DNA of 64,000 nucleotides, taken from Paenibacillus sp. IHBB 10380 (GTDB lineage Bacteria; Bacillota; Bacilli; Paenibacillales; Paenibacillaceae). Location of the stretch: contig NZ_CP010976.1 in NCBI RefSeq assembly GCF_000949425.1, positions 1,922,001-1,986,000 of the forward strand, read 5' to 3'. How positions within the stretch are numbered: position 1 is the first letter of the stretch; the number at the start of each line of letters is the position of its first letter. Below, in pieces: positions 5,641 to 53,964 of the stretch. Made by a program: the position numbers and the translations under genes. The notes under the pieces were generated by a model. It searched no databases. It saw only the letters and a program-made list of their open reading frames with translations, and had not been told where the DNA came from.

Positions 5641-6061
5641 ATTTAATCTACCTTTCAAGTTTTTAGAAACATCCTTTCCATTTTTGATGTGAATTAATCA
5701 ACACTATGAATCAGACATTACGAGGTGCTTTTGGACGGTGTAATTCTCATCGTTTTACAACGATCTGGACGTCCGTTGGGGGATCTTAACGAATACTCAT
5801 CTCACCTTATTAGTGTTCGATGTGCGTAACTCATTCATATCGAAGGAGCGGCTGCTTTTTTTAGTTCGTTGGCAGAAAAAGTAGCTGCCATTGAGGTGTT
5901 ACGTACCCCCTATTGTCACACCGCCATCTCGCTGCGCCGAACTGGACGTGAAGCTATAACAACCAAACTTTAATTTACGCCAACAAAAAGAGATCTGTCG
6001 GGTGACAGGCCTCTTTCATTTCCCATTAAGTTTGTTTGAACTTATATACTTTCGTAGCAAT
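5641..6061. other. Intergenic region with repeats
   Basis: No gene is visible. It holds repeat C1, a GATCTGTC/GTGACAGGCCTC hairpin at about 5984-6018 and leads into a degenerate A element. The Ku promoter should lie near its start. Confidence 0.4.
5865..5910 (+). repeat. Repeat C, copy 1
   Basis: TTCGTTGGCAGAAAAA, then TTGAGGTGTTACGT and a run of C, matched by a second copy at 7358-7405 in the same orientation. Function unknown; probably an end of a decayed mobile element. Confidence 0.55.
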
Positions 6062-6104
6062 GGGACCAAGTTCTTGTCCAGAGCAAAGGACAAGAACTTA
6101 ATCG
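6062..6104. repeat. A-type repeat element, degenerate (A1)
   Basis: GGGACCAAGTTCTTGTCC followed after 8 bases by the inverted GGACAAGAACTT forms the central palindrome of the A element family (see 17191). The downstream hairpin and final site are not recognisable. Confidence 0.55.
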
Positions 6105-16838: not shown

Positions 16839-17335
16839 ATATGGAGTGAATTTGTTGGGGTTATGATATCAGATGGAACCCGAGTGGAAGAGATAATCGC
16901 TATGTCAATAGCTTTGTTGTTCATCTTGTTGCAATCACTTGTCTTATCTCCTCCATTAAAACAATGTTAGAAACAATCTTATTGGCTTTTCCCACTGATT
17001 TGAATGCATTGTCTGAAATTATTAAGTTAACAAAGATGTCCCGTTTAGAAGAAGTTAGATAAGTACAATTAAAGTAAGTCTAAATCGTCTTCAGTAATTC
17101 TATATAGGAGGAAATCACATTTCAAAAGAATGGAATGTAACTTTATTCTCTCGGATTCCAAGATAAAAGAAATAATTATTATCAGCCAAACGGCAATCGG
17201 ACTATATTCTTGGCCTCAAACGGCAATCGGAACAGATTCTTGACAATGCTTAATGACAAGAATCTGTTCCGATAAAACAAAAAAACCGCGATCTACGCGG
17301 ACATTAATCGGACTATATTCTTGTCATCTTACACT
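16839..17335 (+). repeat. Duplicated 0.5-kb block, copy 1
   Basis: Nearly identical to 52181-52657 in the same orientation, with only a few substitutions, one 30-base difference and a small TAATG expansion in copy 2. It holds a partial frame ending SIALLFILLQSLVLSPPLKQ, whose TGT TAG end overlaps the ATG of a 32-codon frame starting MLETILLAFPTDLNALSEII and ending at TAA near 17060. A strong AGGAGG at about 17106 has no ATG at the right distance. The block ends exactly at the right border of the A2 element, so the repeat element probably helped define the copy. Confidence 0.85.
17191..17333. repeat. A-type repeat element, full copy (A2)
   Basis: Sites: 17195-17215 (AATCGGACTATATTCTTGGC), 17225-17245 (AATCGGAACAGATTCTTGAC), 17254-17273 inverted (TGACAAGAATCTGTTCCGAT), then AAAACAAAAAA, the hairpin CCGCGATCTACGCGG at 17286-17300, and a last site 17306-17326 (AATCGGACTATATTCTTGTC) closing with TCATCTTACA. 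The plan right-right-left-hairpin-right recurs in all better-preserved copies. The inner two sites form an 18-bp palindrome. No protein is encoded. It could be a deleted transposon end, a MITE or a structured RNA. Confidence 0.75.
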
Positions 17336-17466
17336 TCTTCTGCCAATTGCAAGGCTTTGGTTTTGAGTCTACCAGCTCTGTCAAGATCGCCTTTTAAAAC
17401 AGCTTGCTTGGATCTCGTCTCCCAAAGACCTGCCCTATTATATAGTTTTCCTGCTTTGCTCACCAT
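17329..17466 (-). CDS. Hypothetical 45-residue protein
   Basis: ATG at 17466 with AAGGTGTGAAC upstream. The product, MVSKAGKLYNRAGLWETRSK then AVLKGDLDRAGRLKTKALQL, is basic and helical, like a short TPR-like hairpin. Its stop codon lies inside the right border of the A2 element. It follows the 72-residue gene by 53 bases, so both may be one small operon. No family recognised. Confidence 0.45.
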   Translation of the reverse strand: MVSKAGKLYNRAGLWETRSKQAVLKGDLDRAGRLKTKALQLAEEV

Positions 17467-22184: not shown

Positions 22185-22346
22185 AAAGTACCGCCACAAT
22201 GTAGGTAACCTTATGTCAAAATCCCACAATGTGGGCAGATTAGTGCATTTTGGCGTGACATCAATTTGCCAACATAAAAATAAAAAAGCCTGATTCGGCA
22301 GGCTTTGCTGATACTGCTTATGTAGGCACTTTAGTGTCACTGGACA
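22185..22346. repeat. B-type repeat element, copy 1 (B1)
   Basis: Sites ACAATGTAGGTAACCTTATG (22197), ACAATGTGGGCAGATTAGTG (22226), inverted GCGTGACATCAATTTGCCAA (22253), then the terminator-like AAAGCCTG/CAGGCTTT hairpin (22285-22306), then TTATGTAGGCACTTTAGTGT (22318) and a border GGACA. Consensus ATGTNGGYANNTTNRTGYCA. The order right-right-left-hairpin-right equals that of the A family. It interrupts the end of a DUF4177 gene. Confidence 0.75.
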
Positions 22347-22504: not shown

Positions 22505-22605
22505 TTACGAGTTCTGGTCAATTAACGTTTCAATTGCCCTACCAGTTAGTGTAAACGGCGGCAGCTTATCGTTCTGGTCGGCTACCGTTGTTTTATCATT
22601 AAGCT
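22505..22605 (-). pseudogene. C-terminal fragment of an unknown protein
   Basis: About 33 codons ending at 22505: NDKTTVADQNDKLPPFTLTG then RAIETLIDQNS. The 5' side is cut exactly at the solo IS4 end. Perhaps phage-derived; no family assigned. Confidence 0.3.
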
Positions 22606-22627
22606 ATAGTGTCCCGTTAGTTGAATG
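22606..22627 (+). repeat. Solo IS4-family inverted-repeat end
   Basis: TATAGTGTCCCGTTAGTTGA; same end sequence as at 16485, with no transposase next to it. Confidence 0.6.
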
Positions 22628-24562: not shown

Positions 24563-24712
24563 TCGAACTCTCCTTCCGGAGTTTTAGTAGATATGAACAA
24601 AAATTGGTATATTTAAATATTAATAAAAAAATTAGTATTTATGCAAAACTGCCCGTTACTTCAATGCGAAAGGGAGCAGCTGCCCATAACGGTTTGCTCC
24701 CTGGTTATTTGC

Positions 24713-24738
24713 ACTATCGTGTCCCGTTAGCTTAATGA
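24713..24738 (+). repeat. Solo IS4-family inverted-repeat end
   Basis: CTATCGTGTCCCGTTAGCTT then AATG. A GGGAGCAGCTGCCC-type hairpin (about 24671-24702) lies just before it, as expected near an IS terminus. Confidence 0.6.
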
Positions 24739-25278: not shown

Positions 25279-25303
25279 ACTATCCTGCCCGTTAGCTTAA
25301 CAG
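25279..25303 (+). repeat. Solo IS4-family inverted-repeat end
   Basis: ACTATCCTGCCCGTTAGCTT then AACAGC, followed at about 25324-25350 by an AAGGAGCC/GGCTCC hairpin. Confidence 0.6.
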
Positions 25304-25443
25304 CGCCAAGTCAATAGCTCAGAAAAGGAGCCATTAATCGGCTCCGTGTTCATTCAGCGGCGACTCTTGAAACAATCCAAATTGACTTTTAAGCCAAATT
25401 TGATTTTGTACTGCAACATGTGGCCTAATTCCCCCTCGTTACC

Positions 25444-27233
25444 TCATATGCTTCTCCAAAAATCCATATCCCCAATATATTTTGCAGCATCAACAATAGT
25501 ATTAAATAGCAAAAAGGAGATCTAATTGAGGCTACACTCTCAATTGGTTCTGTAACGGCTATATCTTTTTGGTGTAGCAACTCCTTAACTATATCAAGTG
25601 GTAATTTTTCATTCTGAGCAGCATGTGTAGCAAAGGCATGTCTCAGTAAATGCGACTTTACAATCACTTGCCTACCGTCAGAAGCTTGGATGATGATACC
25701 GTGAAGCAAAAACCTCAATATGGCATTTAATGTAGCTGCATTGATATGGCGATTTTCATATTGAAAGATATATTTTTTTACTGTCATTAAATGTTTTCTA
25801 CTCTCAACATCGTATTCAACGCTAGGCAGGCTATCACTGCTATAGGATTCCTTTAATTCTTTGATTATTTCGGTCATAAACTTATATAGGTCTTCGGGAA
25901 CATAGTAATTTTCAACTTCCTCTCTTCCCTTTGGGATCAATCGATAAATAAAGTTTTTTCGAGGAGGTTGTATGTTTGAATCCGTCGTGATTACACAACA
26001 ATCTTTGTCATAACTTATTTGCAACAACTCGTTAATACGTGCCCCCGATGAGGTAATTATATCTAGAGAAAATCGGGCAAACATACTGGCTATATAGAAC
26101 GGTTCCAAGTTAATCAATATACTTTTTGAGAATCGTTGTCTTCTGGTTACTTGAAATCCTTGAGTTAATAAACCAGGATTTCGCGAGAAGAATGGCGTTG
26201 CTTTTTTTCCTTCTGAATCAACATCGTATCCCCAATGGGTAAGATAGTCTTGAACTTCCTTTTTTTGATCAGAAGAATAGTGATTTCCTTCCCATTTACC
26301 CAGCAAACGATAACGCAATATATCAATGAACCAAGGTCCGTCGCCCTCGGTATGATCATCTAATCTTTCAGCTTTAGTAAACTCCAAAAAGACAAATTCG
26401 CTTTCATCATTATATAATTTATGATGCTTCGCCTTTCCCTCATACTCCAGATCAAAACTTTCATAATCCCATATCGTAAAGAACCATCTCTCGTTTGCAT
26501 ATTCTGATTCATCGTATGAAAACTCAACTGGAAAACTTAGATTCTCGCTCTTAATTTGTCTGACGGCTCGTTTAACGGCTTTTCTAAGTCGTTTGATCTG
26601 ATTCCATCTGAAATGACCTTCAGCTCTTATTTCGGGCAGCAGAGGTGTTATCGCCGAAGTATCTTCTTTCCGCTTCGTTTTTGCATTAGTGATTGCTCTG
26701 GTTCTCACATTGAAATCTCGATTGTCAAACGGAATGTCTTTTAAAACATACGTATACAATGACTTCTGTTGTTCGACACTGAACTGTGTACCAATCCATT
26801 TTTTTAAGTTGAACTGAAAAGTATTATAGCCTGTCACTATTGACTGACGTTGACGATCGGTATGTTCAGAAAGTATTAAACCAACTACGTAATCTTGGAT
26901 GTGGCTGGCTTGTAACTGATCTATATGAGTAAGTCTATAATAATCAAAAATATTTCTGAACCTTGCATTTAGCACACTTACAATATTCATTATTGACTGA
27001 GGGGTTAAGCTTCGATCTGTCAAACATATAAGTGCGAGGGCAAACTGATTTGTCCAAGGCACATCCAGACATTGTCGATAAAAATACTTCAGATTTTTTT
27101 CGTCAACCTTATCCCAGTAGAACAAACCGTTTGGGTCGCTTAGAAATAACAAATCGTCAGGCAAACGATTATAAAGTAATTTGACCCACAGTTTATCTTC
27201 AAGCTTATTTACAATGTCCGAATAATTAATCAT
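25444..27233 (-). pseudogene. tnpB: TnpB-type tyrosine recombinase, nucleophile lost
   Basis: A 602-residue frame of the Tn554 TnpB type. The catalytic arginine is in SSGARINELLQISYD near residue 400, the HxxR pair in SHLLRHAFATHA near residue 530, and the last histidine in ELLHQKDIAVTE. Nine residues after that histidine, where the family has tyrosine, there is proline (VTEPIESVAS), consistent with an in-frame loss of a YYS-like triplet. One T is also missing in a run near 25511-25515: with it restored the protein would end FNTIVDAAKYIGDMDFWRSI at 25444, whereas the actual frame ends at 25425. The ATG overlaps the tnpA stop by one base (TAATG), so the two were co-translated. Strand transfer should be impossible. 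Confidence 0.8.
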
Positions 27234-28585
27234 TAATCTTCCATCCCCTCATAAAAATCAAGCAACCAATCCTCTGGTGTTTGAGGCTCATTAAGATGTA
27301 ATGAAGTATCTTTCTTCATTTTATTATCGCTATTTAATGATCTCTTGGTGTTGAAAAATTCTTGTTCTCGTTTCAAATAGTTTTCTTGCATTTGCTCATG
27401 TAAGTCTCTGAATTTCTGTTCATCATAATAATGCTCATACACAGAAAGCGTATCGGGATCTCGCCATTTCATATACTCAACGAGCTGTTTTTTCTTGTCT
27501 TCAATTTGGGGTAGTGATTCCGATTCATCATAGATGCTCCGTAACATTGAAGTTACAAACCAGTGTCGAGCTTTATGGGGATTTAATTTAATTCCAGCAT
27601 TATTAATGATTTTGTTCCAATTTGAATAAAACGCAGAATATTTATAGGAATCCCCTTTGATCGTAATAAATAATGGAGCTTGATCATCTAGTTCATTAAA
27701 TGTGGCTGGCGAGGAAGCATGCTCATACCGCTCCGTGTTGACGTATTTAATCAGCAGTTTTAGCGTATCTGAAGATATACGAATGAACTTTACACGCCGC
27801 TTATAACTTCCTTTATTTGAGGCAGCCAACTCATGGATATTCGATCGTTTCCGATAATCACCCAGTGTCAACTCAAGAATCTCCGAAATTCTTGCACCTG
27901 TTTCGAATAGAAATCTTATGATTACTTCATCTCGCAATGACCAGTGAATATTACTACCAGCTTGATAGATTCGATAAGGTAAGTCCCAATCACCAATAAT
28001 CTCAGGAACCCATTTCTCGTTAATAATTTTGAAATAAGAATCCGTTTGTCTACGGTATACAACTGGTTCTTCTGTTCCAGCATCCTTCGGCATCTTAGGT
28101 CTATTCTGTCTGACACCCTTAATGTCATTTACTTGATAATCAAATGCTGAATCAGCAAGTGGATTAGAATATTCATACATCTTTAAACGAATCATTGAAC
28201 GATAAAAGCTTTTAATCGATGAAAGGAACAACTTGACCGTTTTAGGACTCTTACCTGTCAAATATATTCCTTCATGCTGCTCTCTACCTCGTACTTTACA
28301 CATCATCTGTGTAACTAAATATTGCCTTACGACTTCTTTAATAGCATCTGGTTCATCGTTCCATACAACACTTCTTCTTTGATAAGATCCATTGTGTTTA
28401 AACCAGTTAAAGAATGGTTCCAACGTATTTAGATAGGAGATTACAGAAGACTCCCCTATTCTTTTCACTTGATCATGATAGTATTCTGTTAACGGAATGA
28501 AAGGCTTCTTTTCGTCATCAAAGACTATTAATTTGTATTTGCTATCAAAGTCAGCAGGACAATATGCATGAAAAAATTTGCCCAT
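27233..28585 (-). CDS. tnpA: TnpA-type tyrosine recombinase
   Basis: A 450-residue integrase/recombinase of the Tn554 TnpA type. The N-terminal SAM-like DNA-binding domain spans residues 30-170 (with KSPKTVKLFLSSIKSFYRSM). The catalytic domain keeps the arginine in TGARISEILELTLGD, the HxxR-type NPHKARHWF and the nucleophilic tyrosine in LSVYEHYYDEQ; the second histidine position appears to be Trp (MKWRDP), as in other TnpA proteins. It looks complete. I choose the ATG at 28585, which has TAAGG nine bases before it. In Tn554 TnpA, TnpB and TnpC act together to insert at a fixed site; here TnpB is damaged and TnpC is only a relic elsewhere. Confidence 0.85.
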   Translation of the reverse strand: MGKFFHAYCPADFDSKYKLIVFDDEKKPFIPLTEYYHDQVKRIGESSVISYLNTLEPFFNWFKHNGSYQRRSVVWNDEPDAIKEVVRQYLVTQMMCKVRGREQHEGIYLTGKSPKTVKLFLSSIKSFYRSMIRLKMYEYSNPLADSAFDYQVNDIKGVRQNRPKMPKDAGTEEPVVYRRQTDSYFKIINEKWVPEIIGDWDLPYRIYQAGSNIHWSLRDEVIIRFLFETGARISEILELTLGDYRKRSNIHELAASNKGSYKRRVKFIRISSDTLKLLIKYVNTERYEHASSPATFNELDDQAPLFITIKGDSYKYSAFYSNWNKIINNAGIKLNPHKARHWFVTSMLRSIYDESESLPQIEDKKKQLVEYMKWRDPDTLSVYEHYYDEQKFRDLHEQMQENYLKREQEFFNTKRSLNSDNKMKKDTSLHLNEPQTPEDWLLDFYEGMED

Positions 28586-28805
28586 AAGCAGCATCCTTAC
28601 CCGTTAAGTTTCACAAAAAATAGAAGCATTCTATTAAGTCCAAAGAGTGCTCCATCTTTAATGTCTAACATCAAATGAAGATACTAATAATTAAACATTT
28701 AGTCAATTAAAATATACAATTGTATTTACATAGTATTTTATACATATGTCAGTGTTCTCTTGCTTCTTCATTAATATTATCAAAATACGTCTTTGTTGTT
28801 TTCGA

Positions 28806-28822
28806 GATGTGTCACATTTCGT
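28806..28822. promoter_or_regulatory. GTGTCACA palindrome upstream of recombinase genes
   Basis: GATGTGTCACATTTCGTA here and AATGTGTCACATTTCGTA at 30466-30483, each upstream of a TnpA-type gene. It may be a regulatory site or part of the transposon end. Confidence 0.4.
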
Positions 28823-28839
28823 AAATCGTGATAATTACA

Positions 28840-28870
28840 AACAAAAGGAGCCTCACTGGCTCCTTTTGTT
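28840..28870. terminator. Terminator hairpin
   Basis: AACAAAAGGAGCC with its complement around TCACT; ends the small membrane-protein gene's transcript. Confidence 0.75.
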
Positions 28871-28990
28871 CTACGAACATTAAAAAATCCCCGTTTGGGG
28901 ATTATAATAATTTTTTGCGGTCTTCAATACCTTGGTTATAAATGTTCAATATTGTAGCAAGATCAATTGTTGTGCTCTCTATCCTTTCAA

Positions 28991-29215
28991 TTATTTATTC
29001 TTCTGCTTTGCAACTTGCATACCGCCGATGATAAGCATGATAATCCCAATTACTGCTAGAATAATCCGAACTAAGAATGGACTCAATGAAAACACAGTTT
29101 CACCTTGCCAGTGCAATCCGAACAACCTTTCATTCAGCCCCACAATCGCCAATAATGGCTTAAGAAACAAACTCAGCGCTAATAATACTATCCCCCAAAT
29201 AATATTGCTATTCAT
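28991..29215 (-). CDS. Small two-helix membrane protein
   Basis: A 74-residue protein with an N-terminal hydrophobic helix (IIWGIVLLALSLFLKPLLAI), a polar loop with HWQGE, and a second helix (LVRIILAVIGIIMLIIGGMQ) ending in KQKNK. AAGAGG precedes the ATG at ten bases. A typical uncharacterised Bacillales membrane peptide. It sits between two recombinase genes, so it may be cargo. Confidence 0.6.
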   Translation of the reverse strand: MNSNIIWGIVLLALSLFLKPLLAIVGLNERLFGLHWQGETVFSLSPFLVRIILAVIGIIMLIIGGMQVAKQKNK

Positions 29216-29276
29216 TGATTCAAAACCTCTTTTCCAATTAAGATAAATGAAGATTAGTTCACAATAAAACGATCTA

Positions 29277-30410
29277 TCATTGCCTTTCTAGAATTTTATC
29301 CGATATTGTCAATGTTTGCTTGATAATATCCACAACAGGTCCATAATTCTCTGTAATAAAAAAGTGTCCACCATCTACCGTATGAAAAGTCGCTGCCCCA
29401 CCTGCATAATATCTCCACTCGCACATGTCATACATTATAGCACTGTGGTCGTTGCGACCATTAATGATTGTAATATCACAAGCGATCTTATCTTTTTTCT
29501 CTTGGTGACAATATGTTTCTGATATCTTAAAATCAGCGTGCAATATCGGTAAGAATAAATCAAGCAACTCTGCGTTTACATATCGAATGAGCAGCTTCAA
29601 CGTCTTAATTCTTCGTTTATAGCTGCCTTTATTAGTTGCAGCAAATTCATGTTGGTCGGATCGTGAACGATAATCACCCATCGTTAATTCTAATATTTCA
29701 GAGATTCTTGCCCCCGTTTCAAACATGAACCTTGTTATGACTTCGTCTCTCAAACACCAATTCTGGGACTGACCAGCACGGTATATCCGATACGGTAAAT
29801 CACTATCGCCGATGATTTCAGGTATCCACTCTTCATTTATAATTTTAAAGTAAGAGTCCGTTTGATTGCGATATTCCATCGACTCCTCTGTTCCAGCTGC
29901 TTGAAACACTCTTGTTTTGTTTGGTCGGACCCCTTGCCTATCTGATAAGTTATTTTCAAACTCTAAATCGGTTAACGGATTCCCTTGTGCATACATTCCC
30001 ATTCGATTCATTGTCTTGTAGAAGTTCTTAAGTGCTGATAAGAACAACTGCACTGACTTCGAACTCTTATTCGTTAGATAAATGCCCTCATGATTATCAC
30101 GCCCACGTACCTTACAATGCATAACTTGAATCAGATATTGCCTTACTGCTTCTTGAACATCATTCAGATTGTCACTCCACGCAACAACTCTTCCTTTGGA
30201 ACGACTATTATGTTTCATCCAATAGAAGAAAGGTTCTAATGTATGTAAGTAAGCAATAACGGAACTTTCACTAATTCTATTTACATGTTCATGATAAAAA
30301 TAAATCAATGGAAGGAATGGCTCGTTATCATCATCAAACACTAGCAATTGATATTTGCTCTCGACATCCTTTGGACAAAAAACGTGATAAAACGTAGTAA
30401 ACTCCTCCAT
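29277..30410 (-). CDS. Chimera: TnpA recombinase N-part + type II thioesterase tail
   Basis: One open frame of 377 residues. Residues 1-279 match the neighbouring TnpA (shared ESSVIAYLHTLEPFFYWMKH and TGARISEILELTMGDYRSRS), with a small deletion after SYKRR. At about residue 280 (near 29575) it switches in frame to the C-terminal half of an NRPS-type editing thioesterase: LFLPILHADFKISETYCHQE, a GRNDHS acid region and the catalytic-histidine segment VDGGHFFI. The recombinase lacks its HxxR and tyrosine; the thioesterase lacks its Ser domain. Neither activity is expected. Transcription and translation are possible but the ribosome binding site is weak. Confidence 0.8.
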   Translation of the reverse strand: MEEFTTFYHVFCPKDVESKYQLLVFDDDNEPFLPLIYFYHEHVNRISESSVIAYLHTLEPFFYWMKHNSRSKGRVVAWSDNLNDVQEAVRQYLIQVMHCKVRGRDNHEGIYLTNKSSKSVQLFLSALKNFYKTMNRMGMYAQGNPLTDLEFENNLSDRQGVRPNKTRVFQAAGTEESMEYRNQTDSYFKIINEEWIPEIIGDSDLPYRIYRAGQSQNWCLRDEVITRFMFETGARISEILELTMGDYRSRSDQHEFAATNKGSYKRRIKTLKLLIRYVNAELLDLFLPILHADFKISETYCHQEKKDKIACDITIINGRNDHSAIMYDMCEWRYYAGGAATFHTVDGGHFFITENYGPVVDIIKQTLTISDKILERQ

Positions 30411-37978: not shown

Positions 37979-38116
37979 GAACAATATATGTTCTTGTCCT
38001 CAATCGGCAAAGGATACATGTTCTTGTCATTGCTTTTTGACAAGAACATATATCGTTAAAACAAAAAAAGCCGCAACTACGCGACTTTTATGTATGTATG
38101 TTCTTGTCACCCGACA
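37979..38116. repeat. A-type repeat element, full copy (A3)
   Basis: Sites 37979-37999 (ACAATATATGTTCTTGTCC), 38009-38029 (AAAGGATACATGTTCTTGTC), inverted 38038-38058 (TGACAAGAACATATATCG), then AAAACAAAAAAA, a GCCGC-AACTA-GCG hairpin at 38066-38089, and the last site ending TTCTTGTCACCCGACA. Same plan as A2 although the outer halves of the sites differ. Confidence 0.75.
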
Positions 38117-43424: not shown

Positions 43425-43754
43425 CAAATCCTCCTAAAATAAATTAAATTTATGCATAGCTAGCATTTAAATGCTGGCATATCCATCTTGGTATGTATTA
43501 AATAAATTTCAGACTAATATGACACTATTTAATGCCATTCTTTGCCATATAATAAATATCACCATCTATCTCTATTGCTTGAATACCATCTTTATTCTTC
43601 TTTTAATAATAAAAAAACTCACAACATAAGCTGTGGGTTTCTTTCAGAAGTATTCAAGAATAAAAATTAAATAATTACTAAACATACTGTGTTTACCTTT
43701 ACCGGATATATAATCACTTTAGATACTTTGTTAGTATCATTAATTAAAGCACCG
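43425..43754. other. Upstream region of the M60 gene
   Basis: AT-rich; holds an ACTCACAACATAAGCTGTGG-type hairpin at about 43617-43645 and presumably the protease promoter. No gene. Confidence 0.4.
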
Positions 43755-43907
43755 CAACAATGTAGGTGAATTTATGTCAAAATCTCATAATGTAGGCAGA
43801 TTAGTGCATTTTAGCGTGACATCAATTTGCCTACATAAAAATAAAAAAGCCTGATTTATCAGGCTTTACAGATACTGCTTATGTAGGAACTTTAGTGTCA
43901 TTGGACA
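43755..43907. repeat. B-type repeat element, copy 2 (B2)
   Basis: Sites at 43757 (CAACAATGTAGGTGAATTTA), 43788 (ATAATGTAGGCAGATTAGTG), inverted 43814 (GCGTGACATCAATTTGCCTA), hairpin AAAGCCTG/CAGGCTTT, then 43879 (TTATGTAGGAACTTTAGTGT), border GGACA. About 85% identical to B1 over its full length. Confidence 0.75.
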
Positions 43908-45238: not shown

Positions 45239-45273
45239 CGTCGGCAATCGGATTATGTTCTTGTCACCCGACA
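45239..45273 (+). repeat. A-type repeat, single terminal site (A6)
   Basis: CAATCGGATTATGTTCTTGT then CACCCGACA, matching the right border of A3; the rest of the element is absent. Confidence 0.6.
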
Positions 45274-46166: not shown

Positions 46167-46385
46167 GTTTTTTCCTCCGTTTTTATGTACGGAAGATTAT
46201 TAATAAAAGAATTTTCTAATATTAAAACTTCCGTACCTCGATTTTAATAGATGAATGAACAGATCTGACTATCATAAAAGATCACTCGCTTTCCGTAATA
46301 TATAAGAATATTGTACGAAGTTTATTCTTTTAAAGCAACAGTGGCTATAGATTTAATAAATACATTTTCGATGTTATTTTTAAAA

Positions 46386-46825
46386 TTACGTGTATTTTTC
46401 AAACTCATTCTTTAGCCAAATTTGATTCTGTTCGGCAATATATATCTTAATATCAAATTCAATATCTAATAAAGGATTATTGTGTTTATACATTTCTAGT
46501 AAAATCATCGTCTTGTAGAAACTCTTAATAGCTGATAAAAACAATTGAACAGTTTTGGAACTCTTGCTAGTTAAGTAGATCCCTTCATGCCTTTCTCGAC
46601 CACGTATCTTACAATGCATCTCTTGAATCAGATATTGTCTGATAGTTTGATTGCATTTGATTCATCATTCCAAGATACTTTCAGGCCCTTATAGTGACTT
46701 TTATACTTTAACCAGTGAAAGAATCGTTCTAAGGTACTTAAGTAGGCAATTACAGAGCTTTCGCTAATTCTATTAATCTGTTCATGATAAAATTCTGTCA
46801 ATGGAATAAATGGTTCTTTCTCACG
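46386..46825 (-). pseudogene. TnpA-type recombinase fragment, frameshifted
   Basis: From about 46825 the minus strand encodes PFIPLTEFYHEQINRISESS then VIAYLSTLERFFHWLKYKSH, the N-terminal domain of the Tn554-type TnpA. Near 46650 a frameshift occurs and IRQYLIQEMHCKIRGRERHE and KSSKTVQLFLSAIKSFYKTM continue to 46470. The rest is replaced by YIAEQNQIWLKNEFEKYT and a stop at 46386. The whole catalytic domain is missing. Third TnpA copy in the window. Confidence 0.75.
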
Positions 46826-49921: not shown

Positions 49922-50246
49922 CTCCTACACCTCCATAATAGATGAGTTTTATGGTAAAATTCACCTTTTTTATGATCTAAATATACAACAAACACCATAC
50001 TTTGTAAATAAAAATGTTTAATAAGTAGAAGTGATAGAAAGCAAGCTGAGTACTTCAACTGATTATCATACCGTACATAACGGCAATCGAAGACGGCACA
50101 GCCAGGTTGATATCCCTGTAAGGCTGAGGGTTGCCTCTGTCTTTATTCAGTTTTAAGGGTAAATGGTCCTTCTCTGTCGCTCGGTAATCATTGCTCCAGA
50201 GAAGCTTCGCCGTGCGATCCCCTGAAATGACCTGCTTTCTGAAAAT
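49922..50246. other. Upstream region of the MFS gene
   Basis: AT-rich promoter region, then a CGGCAATCG scrap of an A site at about 50091. No gene supported. Confidence 0.35.
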
Positions 50247-50301
50247 AAAAAGTCGCTAATTTTAGCGATTTCGGATGGTGCAATATTCTAGTCCCCCGAC
50301 A
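50247..50301 (+). repeat. A-type repeat, right part (A4b)
   Basis: AAAAGTCGCTAATTTTAGCGA hairpin followed by GCAATATTCTAGTCCCCCGA and CAT, i.e. the hairpin plus last site of an A element with substitutions. Confidence 0.5.
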
Positions 50302-50376
50302 TTCCTCCTTCCTTGGGAGTTCTCATCGTTTTTAATCTATGCGTAAAACTATTTAGATCAACATCAAATCGGAAAA

Positions 50377-50480
50377 GGAACCAAGTTCTTGTCCTCAGCT
50401 CGGGACAAGAACTTGGCTCCCTAAAACAAAAAAGCCGCTAATATAGCGACTTTGTATGGTAATGTCTTACCCCCACATAG
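50377..50480. repeat. A-type repeat element, partial (A4)
   Basis: GGAACCAAGTTCTTGTCC, inverted GGGACAAGAACTTGGCTCC (50402), AAAACAAAA, then the AAAGCCGCTAATATAGCGAC hairpin at 50431-50453. The last site is degraded (GGTAATGTCTTACCCCC). Confidence 0.65.
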
Positions 50481-52180: not shown

Positions 52181-52657
52181 ATATGGAGTGAATTTGTTGG
52201 GGTTATGATATCAGATGGAACCCGAGTGGAAGAGAAAATCGCTATGTCAATAGCTTTGCTGTTCATCTCGTTGCAATCACTTGTCTTATCTCCTCCATTA
52301 AAACAATGTTAGAAACAATCTTATTGGTTTTTCCCACTGATTTGAATGAATTGTCTGAAATTATTAAGTTAACAAAGATGTCCCGTTTAGAAGAAGTTAG
52401 ATAAGTACAATTAAAGTAAGTTTAAATCGTCTTCAGTATCATTTTATTAGGAGGAAATCACATTCAAAATAATGTAATGTAATGTAATGTAACTTTATTC
52501 TCTCGGATTCCAAGATAAAAGAAATAATTATTATCAGCCAAACGGCAATCGGAACAGATTCTTGACAATGCTTAATGTCAAGAATCTGTTCCGATAAAAC
52601 AAAAAAAACGCGATCTACGCGGACATTAATCGGACTATATTCTTTGTCATCTTACAC
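52181..52657 (+). repeat. Duplicated 0.5-kb block, copy 2
   Basis: Copy of 16839-17335. The left border is the shared ATATGGAGTGAATTTGTTGG; upstream here the frame extends as GGPITLATIISFPIWSEFVG, so copy 2 keeps more of the gene (frame stop at 52310-52312), coupled by ATGTTAG overlap to a 32-codon frame. TAATG is repeated about four times near 52477-52496. Lacks 30 bases corresponding to one A site. Confidence 0.85.
52541..52657. repeat. A-type repeat element, one site fewer (A5)
   Basis: AATCGGAACAGATTCTTGAC (52547), inverted TGTCAAGAATCTGTTCCGAT (52576-52595), AAAACAAAAAAAA, ACGCGATCTACGCGG hairpin, last site AATCGGACTATATTCTTTGT and border TCATCTTACAC. Compared with A2 one 30-base unit between two CGGCAATCGG repeats is absent. 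Confidence 0.75.
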
Positions 52658-53069: not shown

Positions 53070-53098
53070 AAGAGGACAATGTTCTTGTCCTCTTACAC
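53070..53098 (+). repeat. A-type repeat, single site (A7)
   Basis: AGGACAATGTTCTTGTCC with border TCTTACAC, the same border as A2 and A5. It abuts and cuts the IS256 relic. Confidence 0.55.
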
Positions 53099-53886: not shown

Positions 53887-53936
53887 GTGCGACTAGAATT
53901 TTGCATAACATGATTGCTTTTACATAAACCAACATC

Positions 53937-53964
53937 GCCACAATGTAGGTAACTTTGTGTCAAA
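53937..53964 (+). repeat. B-type repeat, left end only (B3)
   Basis: CGCCACAATGTAGGTAACTT then TGTGTCAAA, matching the first site of B1; the remaining sites are absent. Confidence 0.6.

Follow-up and report, generated by a model that had tools for sequence, protein, structure and literature searches.

A structured repeat family of Paenibacillus as the probable right end of Tn7-like transposons with a putative dif-like target

Layout and copies of the repeat

What is a repeat whose copies carry several short sites in a set order, and how did copies of it come to be scattered along one stretch of a bacterial chromosome? The question is raised by family A, found in a stretch of 64,000 nucleotides (the window; G000:C1:1922001-1986000, where G000 is the genome of Paenibacillus sp. 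IHBB 10380) on a chromosome of 5.77 Mb. The family comprises four TTCTTGTC-type sites, of which three run in one direction and the other, inverted, builds a palindrome together with the second; it further includes an A-rich tract, a GC hairpin and a border of the form TGT...ACA. We regard it as very probable that a Tn7-like transposon has family A as its right end, that the elements are aimed at a dif-like site, and that later loss has given rise to solo ends. On this reading, a repeat family that lacked an explanation records how Tn7-like elements landed time and again at a single site on the chromosome.

Inspection of the sequence confirmed the repeat at all eight places in the window where the original prediction had put it. 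Four of these had been called full or near-full, and two of them are full. The first is the copy at 17191..17333 (minus strand), which reads leftwards from a tip, TGTAAG, at 17333, with sites at 9>, 72<, 90> and 120> from the tip, a palindrome at about 17226-17273, and a terminator-like hairpin at 17286-17300 with its terminator sense on the minus strand. The second, at 37979..38116 (minus strand, tip TGTCGG at 38116), has its sites one base tighter (9, 71, 89 and 119) and is conserved, along with the adjoining gene, in another genome (G010, 3223318). The other two are incomplete: that at 52541..52656 (minus strand), a near-duplicate of the 17191 copy including about 350 bp upstream, is without the innermost (first) site and carries an additional base in its terminal site, and that at 50371..50467 (minus strand) consists of palindrome and hairpin, with a decayed terminal site and no border. 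The remaining places are fragments: hairpin, terminal site and border at 50242..50301 (minus strand), the palindrome alone at 6058..6100 (no strand assigned), and terminal site plus border at 45239..45273 (minus strand, joined to a half-core of a second family, X, at about 45172) and at 53070..53097 (minus strand, border TGTAAG). A profile made with 16 copies from a different genome recovered six of the eight places at E<=1e-3, missing the two shortest. Matches to a generic single-site pattern exceed chance weakly in the window (13 against an expected 7.0, with as many in 3 of 100 shuffles), so the evidence for family A lies in the whole layout. Another repeat, CACAATGTAGG...TGTCAAA, has three copies in the window (22185-22346, 43746-43907 and 53933-53964), and similar repeats, GACACAAA, occur near the dif-like site in several genomes.

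The minus strand of 17191-17333, folded as single-stranded DNA, reaches -26.4 kcal/mol versus -10.4 (sd 2.4) kcal/mol for shuffles (z -6.7); folded as RNA, the same stretch gives z values of -5.4 and -8.0. The original prediction also held that the two arms of the palindrome covary, and took this as a sign of pairing or of a dimeric protein. The arms do covary: in 58 distinct arm pairs, obtained from the 95 of 155 copies that could be parsed and uncorrected for relatedness of copies, the fraction of identical positions (12 compared) is 0.779 within a copy versus 0.596 (sd 0.014) when shuffled. The interpretation has to be widened, as covariation extends to site 1 versus site 3 (0.669 identical versus 0.572 shuffled), site 2 versus site 1 (0.686 versus 0.590) and site 2 versus site 3 (0.627 versus 0.548), the excess for the palindrome being larger. 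Since covariation spans all sites, shared recognition by a transposase can explain most of it, and joint change of this kind is as expected for putative sites of one co-evolving protein. The additional excess in the palindrome could reflect a hairpin function or gene conversion.

With 17185-17340 as the query, BLAST detects family A in 20 of 39 other genomes and gives, in the genome itself, 13 matches at E<=1e-3, two of which are the palindrome read on the other strand. The terminus pattern TGTCGRNKGACAAGAAY is present in 65 of 100 genomes of the genus (six matches in all for the backward control). Across 84,980 species genomes a terminus pattern occurs in 88 stretches, and all 80 among the matches listed are from Paenibacillus. 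A plasmid search returned partial matches in five Paenibacillus records, and a phage search returned no match. Literature searches on Paenibacillus repeats yielded, among the matches listed, work on bee disease and bee mites that is of no use here.

Tn7-like elements that carry the same end

An early reading, that family A has no autonomous parent, was overturned by a search for TniQ, which matches in 31 of 100 genomes of the genus and leads, close to the termini of family A, to proteins about 490-530 aa long. The suggestion in the original prediction that the sites are of TnsB type, and that an autonomous parent sharing the ends should be sought, was well founded: a parent with TnsA, TnsB, TnsC and TniQ, bearing the same end as family A, is present in other Paenibacillus genomes. 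At one locus (L174, on contig 14 of G005) four co-directional genes of 211, 671, 324 and 523 aa match TnsA (46.0 bits), the C-terminal Mu-transposase family (Mu-transpos_C, 21.9 bits, its cut-off being 21.7), AAA/TniB (TniB 22.7 bits) and TniQ (28.5 bits). All are over their Pfam cut-offs (PF08722, PF09299, PF13401/PF05621 and PF06527), some of the matches to tns genes barely so. Homologous operons are found in eight further genomes (G009, G118, G098, G120, G022, G094, G050 and G085), and all of these core genes lie outside the window. The TnsB of L174 has no match to an rve/DDE domain, and at a further locus, L089, a TnsB fragment has no Pfam match and the TniQ falls below its cut-off. A PDB sequence search gave no match for TnsB, a further PDB search gave two weak TnsD/TniQ matches (E 0.03-0.05), and an NCBIfam search gave no match for any of the four Tns proteins.

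The genome from which the window comes has no TnsB match and no TniQ match, so the parent is not seen there; a search with PF09299 gave no match in it, though neither did it give one in any control genome. Among ORF clusters within 3 kb of 111 family A loci, none was recognised by eye as a transposase. TnsB is matched in 12 of 100 genomes; a family A terminus is present in 11 of these 12, and 54 of the 65 terminus-bearing genomes are without a TnsB match; the association between TnsB and terminus is not significant (Fisher p 0.052).

It is the arrangement of these elements that identifies family A. The tns operons stand between a four-site family A end and a two-site end, which makes family A, on sequence grounds, a Tn7-like right end of Paenibacillus with putative TnsB-type sites. 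The names right and left follow the four-site right end of Tn7 (PMC8649781, in part). The short end, downstream of tniQ, has two sites at 9> and 32> from the tip in all seven cases read. The right end has the map 9>, 72<, 90>, 120> in five of seven read, identical to that of the window copy at 17191; the two others are a right end with two sites (G050) and a degenerate one (G005 contig 14), and for G022 the far end was not found. Far ends, each of them family A or a variant of it, lie at 127874 in G120, 2688681 in G009 and 3109302 in G118, those of G009 and G118 being identical in sequence. The element at 127874-168590 in G120 has a 5-bp duplication, GCCGA, on both sides, the one such case among five elements with both ends read; matching flanks are absent in G050, G009, G118 and G005 contig 14. 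Tandem arrangements, with one element directly after another, occur in G118 and G009, and in G094 a gap of 18 bp separates a left end from the right end behind it. At several places (L182, L199, L208, L218 and G004 2025383-2028199) tips stand face to face, 2-5 bp apart, or family A tips are fused to an inner site, the latter being internal deletions.

How do these elements compare with Tn7 itself? They share with it homologues of TnsA, TnsB, TnsC and TniQ in one operon, TGT...ACA tips, arrays of ~20-bp sites with four at one end, a 5-bp duplication (seen in one element here), and a fixed orientation beside one chromosomal site. They differ from it in that one of the four right-end sites is inverted to form the palindrome, that a terminator-like hairpin lies between sites, that the other end has two sites, that the target is dif-like, and that solo right ends are many. 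In the part of PMC8649781 drawn on here, Tn7 is described with three left and four right TnsB sites, site arrays are given as a general feature, and Tn7-like ends of about 20-bp TnsB sites are reported also from Firmicutes. The statement in the original prediction that no family of this layout has been described thus needs qualification: arrays of TnsB sites are on record there, and what was not found in that part of the source is an inverted site with an embedded terminator.

In contrast to the intact elements, most copies are one-ended. With strict end patterns, for which the reversed control gave no match, 67 array regions have 98 right-type versus 6 left-type ends and nine tns-bearing regions have 9 right and 7 left (one contig is common to both sets). 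The idea that the copies are MITEs does not survive this comparison, each copy having one TGT tip. Neither target-site duplications nor a second TGT end, both looked for, were seen at the window copies, and no second tip was found in 16 aligned copies. Judged by their sequence, the copies in the window are most plausibly transposon remnants with a single end. Rather than belonging to Tn7-like elements, the copies could in principle form an independent family of structured small RNAs or MITEs, and the strong folding and covarying arms would suit such a family. We consider this highly improbable: there is no Rfam match in the window, the layout recurs as the end of intact tns-bearing elements, and the copies are one-ended, so that the small-RNA idea is left unsupported.

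What can be said of the route to solo right ends? In the preferred reading, that of Tn7-like right ends, later deletion and recombination would remove left ends and tns genes. Simple insertion of family A into genes was rejected, as in four cases the continuation past the copy was not clearly found within 8 kb (in three there was either no match or a 29-bp one, in the fourth there were only matches of 28-94 bp at 71-89%). Among 108 tip flanks tested, five part, 0-3 bases from the tip, from a relative that runs on without family A; one of these breaks is inside a gene, with the continuation beyond family A not clearly found. One orthologous pair keeps family A. The idea that family A is an attC or rolling-circle end, suggested by arrays in one orientation, was dropped once the tns operons and their ends had been found.

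A probable dif-like target and the orientation of the copies

The right flank of the G120 element contains, on the other strand, a 27-base site, CACAAAACCCGTATTTTGTACATATGT. Allowing up to two mismatches, this site is present in 95 of 100 Paenibacillus genomes, with exactly one copy in 90; among 34 one-contig genomes, 23 have it 45-57% of the way along the sequence (sizes partly rounded). A gene for a XerS-like protein (356 aa, L148:5758-6825; 390 bits, cut-off 267) is found in 24 of the 100 genomes in addition to a more distant paralogue that is present in nearly all. The site is often directly 3-prime of this gene, whose stop is within 160 bp of it at 20 of 24 loci (at 22 if up to five mismatches are allowed). 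We infer that the 27-bp site is dif-like, and the target is probably the Xer dif site. The XerS-like gene had itself been considered as the integrase of family A. This was dropped, and as the sequence 3-prime of the gene is a conserved, mostly single-copy site, the gene was re-read as the neighbourhood of the target. No literature was found for XerS, Paenibacillus and dif in combination.

The tips of short ends lie 38-50 bp from the 27-bp site at 8 of 21 site occurrences examined (G120, G022, G050, G009, G043, G084, G070 with the tip only, and G012 with a variant site). The orientation of family A flips at the site: among 79 termini in the matches listed that are on contigs with the site, 69 in right-end orientation agree with their side and 3 do not, while the other 7 have left-end orientation and lie within 1.3 kb of the site. 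Short ends at eight loci and 69 of 72 right ends thus show insertion in fixed orientation beside one att site. In the genome itself the site is at C1:1913388-1913414, 8.6 kb before the first base of the window. Minus-strand copies lie to its left at about 1892131-1892136 (25.9 bits) and 1903697-1903703 (38.8 bits), and from the start of the window on the copies are plus; one far away, at 1492889, is oriented contrary to what its side would require. The position of the window to the right of the dif-like site accounts for its family A copies all pointing one way. TniQ, or a partner, would recognise the dif-like site, and elements would keep landing on either side of it, with their orientation fixed. 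Ends, genes and target are thereby supplied for a testable targeting route.

Alternatively, insertion could occur anywhere with a strand bias, orientation being set by the direction of replication and flipping at the terminus. Replication direction also flips at the terminus site and could bias orientation, and a few copies more than 1 Mb away agree as well. Moreover, X copies, which belong to another system, are oriented as family A is in all 29 fetched regions (145 family A and 110 X copies, sharing orientation within each region). These regions were chosen for holding matches (at least two of family A, or both A and X), with thresholds of at least 40 bits for A and 25 bits for X and with overlapping weaker matches removed; below the thresholds there are other-strand X matches, five in G005 and one in G010, and the two minus-strand family A copies to the left of the dif-like site in the genome itself, while many other opposite-strand A matches are the palindrome read backwards. 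The fixed spacing of 38-50 bp at eight loci and the elements in tandem argue that strand bias alone is insufficient, and we consider this explanation distinctly unlikely.

Settling of a TniQ element beside a recombination site has a parallel in the Tn5053/Tn402 family, the 'res site hunters'. The elements described here differ in carrying TnsA, and in that their site is chromosomal and dif-like and not a plasmid res site. A link between a Tn7-like element and tyrosine-recombinase biology is likewise seen in Tn6022, in which TnsF, an inactive tyrosine-recombinase-like protein, selects the target comM (PMC10293859, in part); here the selector would be TniQ alone and the target is beside a XerS-like gene in many genomes, not comM. 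The word Paenibacillus is absent from the main text of PMC8649781 and PMC10293859. A TnsABC element aimed at a dif-like site was not found in the part of the literature searched, which takes in few subscription papers, and a search for Tn7-like elements, Paenibacillus and TniQ returned a general review only.

Right ends within an integron-like array

Interspersed with family A is family X, with cores TTAAGCTAAC-GGGCAG-GATAGTTCAA around a hairpin. X elements, integron-like sites of a separate system, lie in the window at 22540..22620 and 24650..24730 (both plus strand), with half-cores near 25285, 37847, 45172 and 53867. X sites in one orientation, together with a gene for a 280-aa XerC/D-like tyrosine recombinase that X cores bound in five contexts, make up an integron-like array, which is also represented at L150:7562-8407, L144, L145, L147 and L081. 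This recombinase has matches at E<=1e-30 in 34 of 100 genomes, including fragments and relatives of 29-43%. Of 611 endpoints of segments shared between regions, 27 lie no more than 10 bp from an X core, where 2.2 would be expected, and 4 lie equally close to a family A tip, where 0.5 would be expected. A 1.2-kb cassette stands on one side of the recombinase element in one genome and on the other side in a second, with its joints at cores. The cassettes of the X array are thus joined at the recombination site.

The X array resembles integrons (IntI/attC) in its cassettes of the same orientation, its structured site, its joints at core sites and its tyrosine recombinase. It differs in the sequence of its core and in that recombinase, which scores 87.8 bits against the IntI-type integrase model (TIGR02249) with its cut-off of 265, a cut-off exceeded in none of 25 genomes. 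The part of a 2022 survey used here reports a single complete integron in Firmicutes (PMC9024848).

Could the X system have taken over the transposon ends? In such a scenario the Tn7-like right end and the adjoining X core would have been domesticated as an interchangeable 3-prime module, a terminator plus a recombination signal, that makes genes mobile cassettes near the terminus, with the 280-aa recombinase moving them without TnsB. Of 104 left-complete copies, 51 have an X core within 200 bp inside family A and in the same orientation, and none has one on the opposite strand (background 1.4%). Twice, a cassette with X after it in one genome has a module bearing family A in that position in another, and both the 27 segment endpoints at X cores and the 54 genomes with a terminus and no TnsB match would also fit. 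By the pattern used, 53 of the 104 copies are without an X core, however, and the right ends of intact elements share the layout. An X-like core is present inside the right ends of G009 and G118, whose ends are identical, so the linkage of A and X could be ancestral; and G005, G078 and G104, rich in family A, have no close match to the recombinase. We judge such domestication unlikely, and the takeover of right ends as cassette modules no more than a tentative proposal. If it were true, it would offer a concrete route by which cassettes gain a recombination site, and the ends would have outlived the transposase in most carrier genomes.

Under the preferred reading as Tn7-like right ends, recombination at X cores probably contributes to the loss of left ends and tns genes; that it removed the interiors of the transposons is a guess that fits. 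Orphan transposon ends are linked here with an integron-like array in Bacillota, which bears on the origin of cassette arrays and their sites. Set against the parts consulted of PMC8649781, PMC10293859, PMC11406308, PMC9024848 and PMC8618304, arrays of TnsB sites at Tn7-like ends are familiar, and what is new is the inverted site together with its terminator, a target that is dif-like, the large number of right ends standing alone, and the setting of these ends within an integron-like array.

The window itself contains, at 25425-30410, tyrosine recombinase genes of 602 and 453 aa and a 377-aa paralogue, the second half of which matches a thioesterase domain (Pfam), with relics at 46365-46823. 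These recombinases were considered as movers of family A and rejected. Full-length relatives occur in G012, G019, G032 and G058; in the 17-20 kb around those of G019, G032 and G058 there is no match to A or X, so the recombinases are not an evident partner of family A. In the same genome, an equal integrase score is obtained at G000:C1:355696-356232 and at G000:C2:9413-9949, on a second contig of 17 kb, and these two places are possibly one mobile element present twice.
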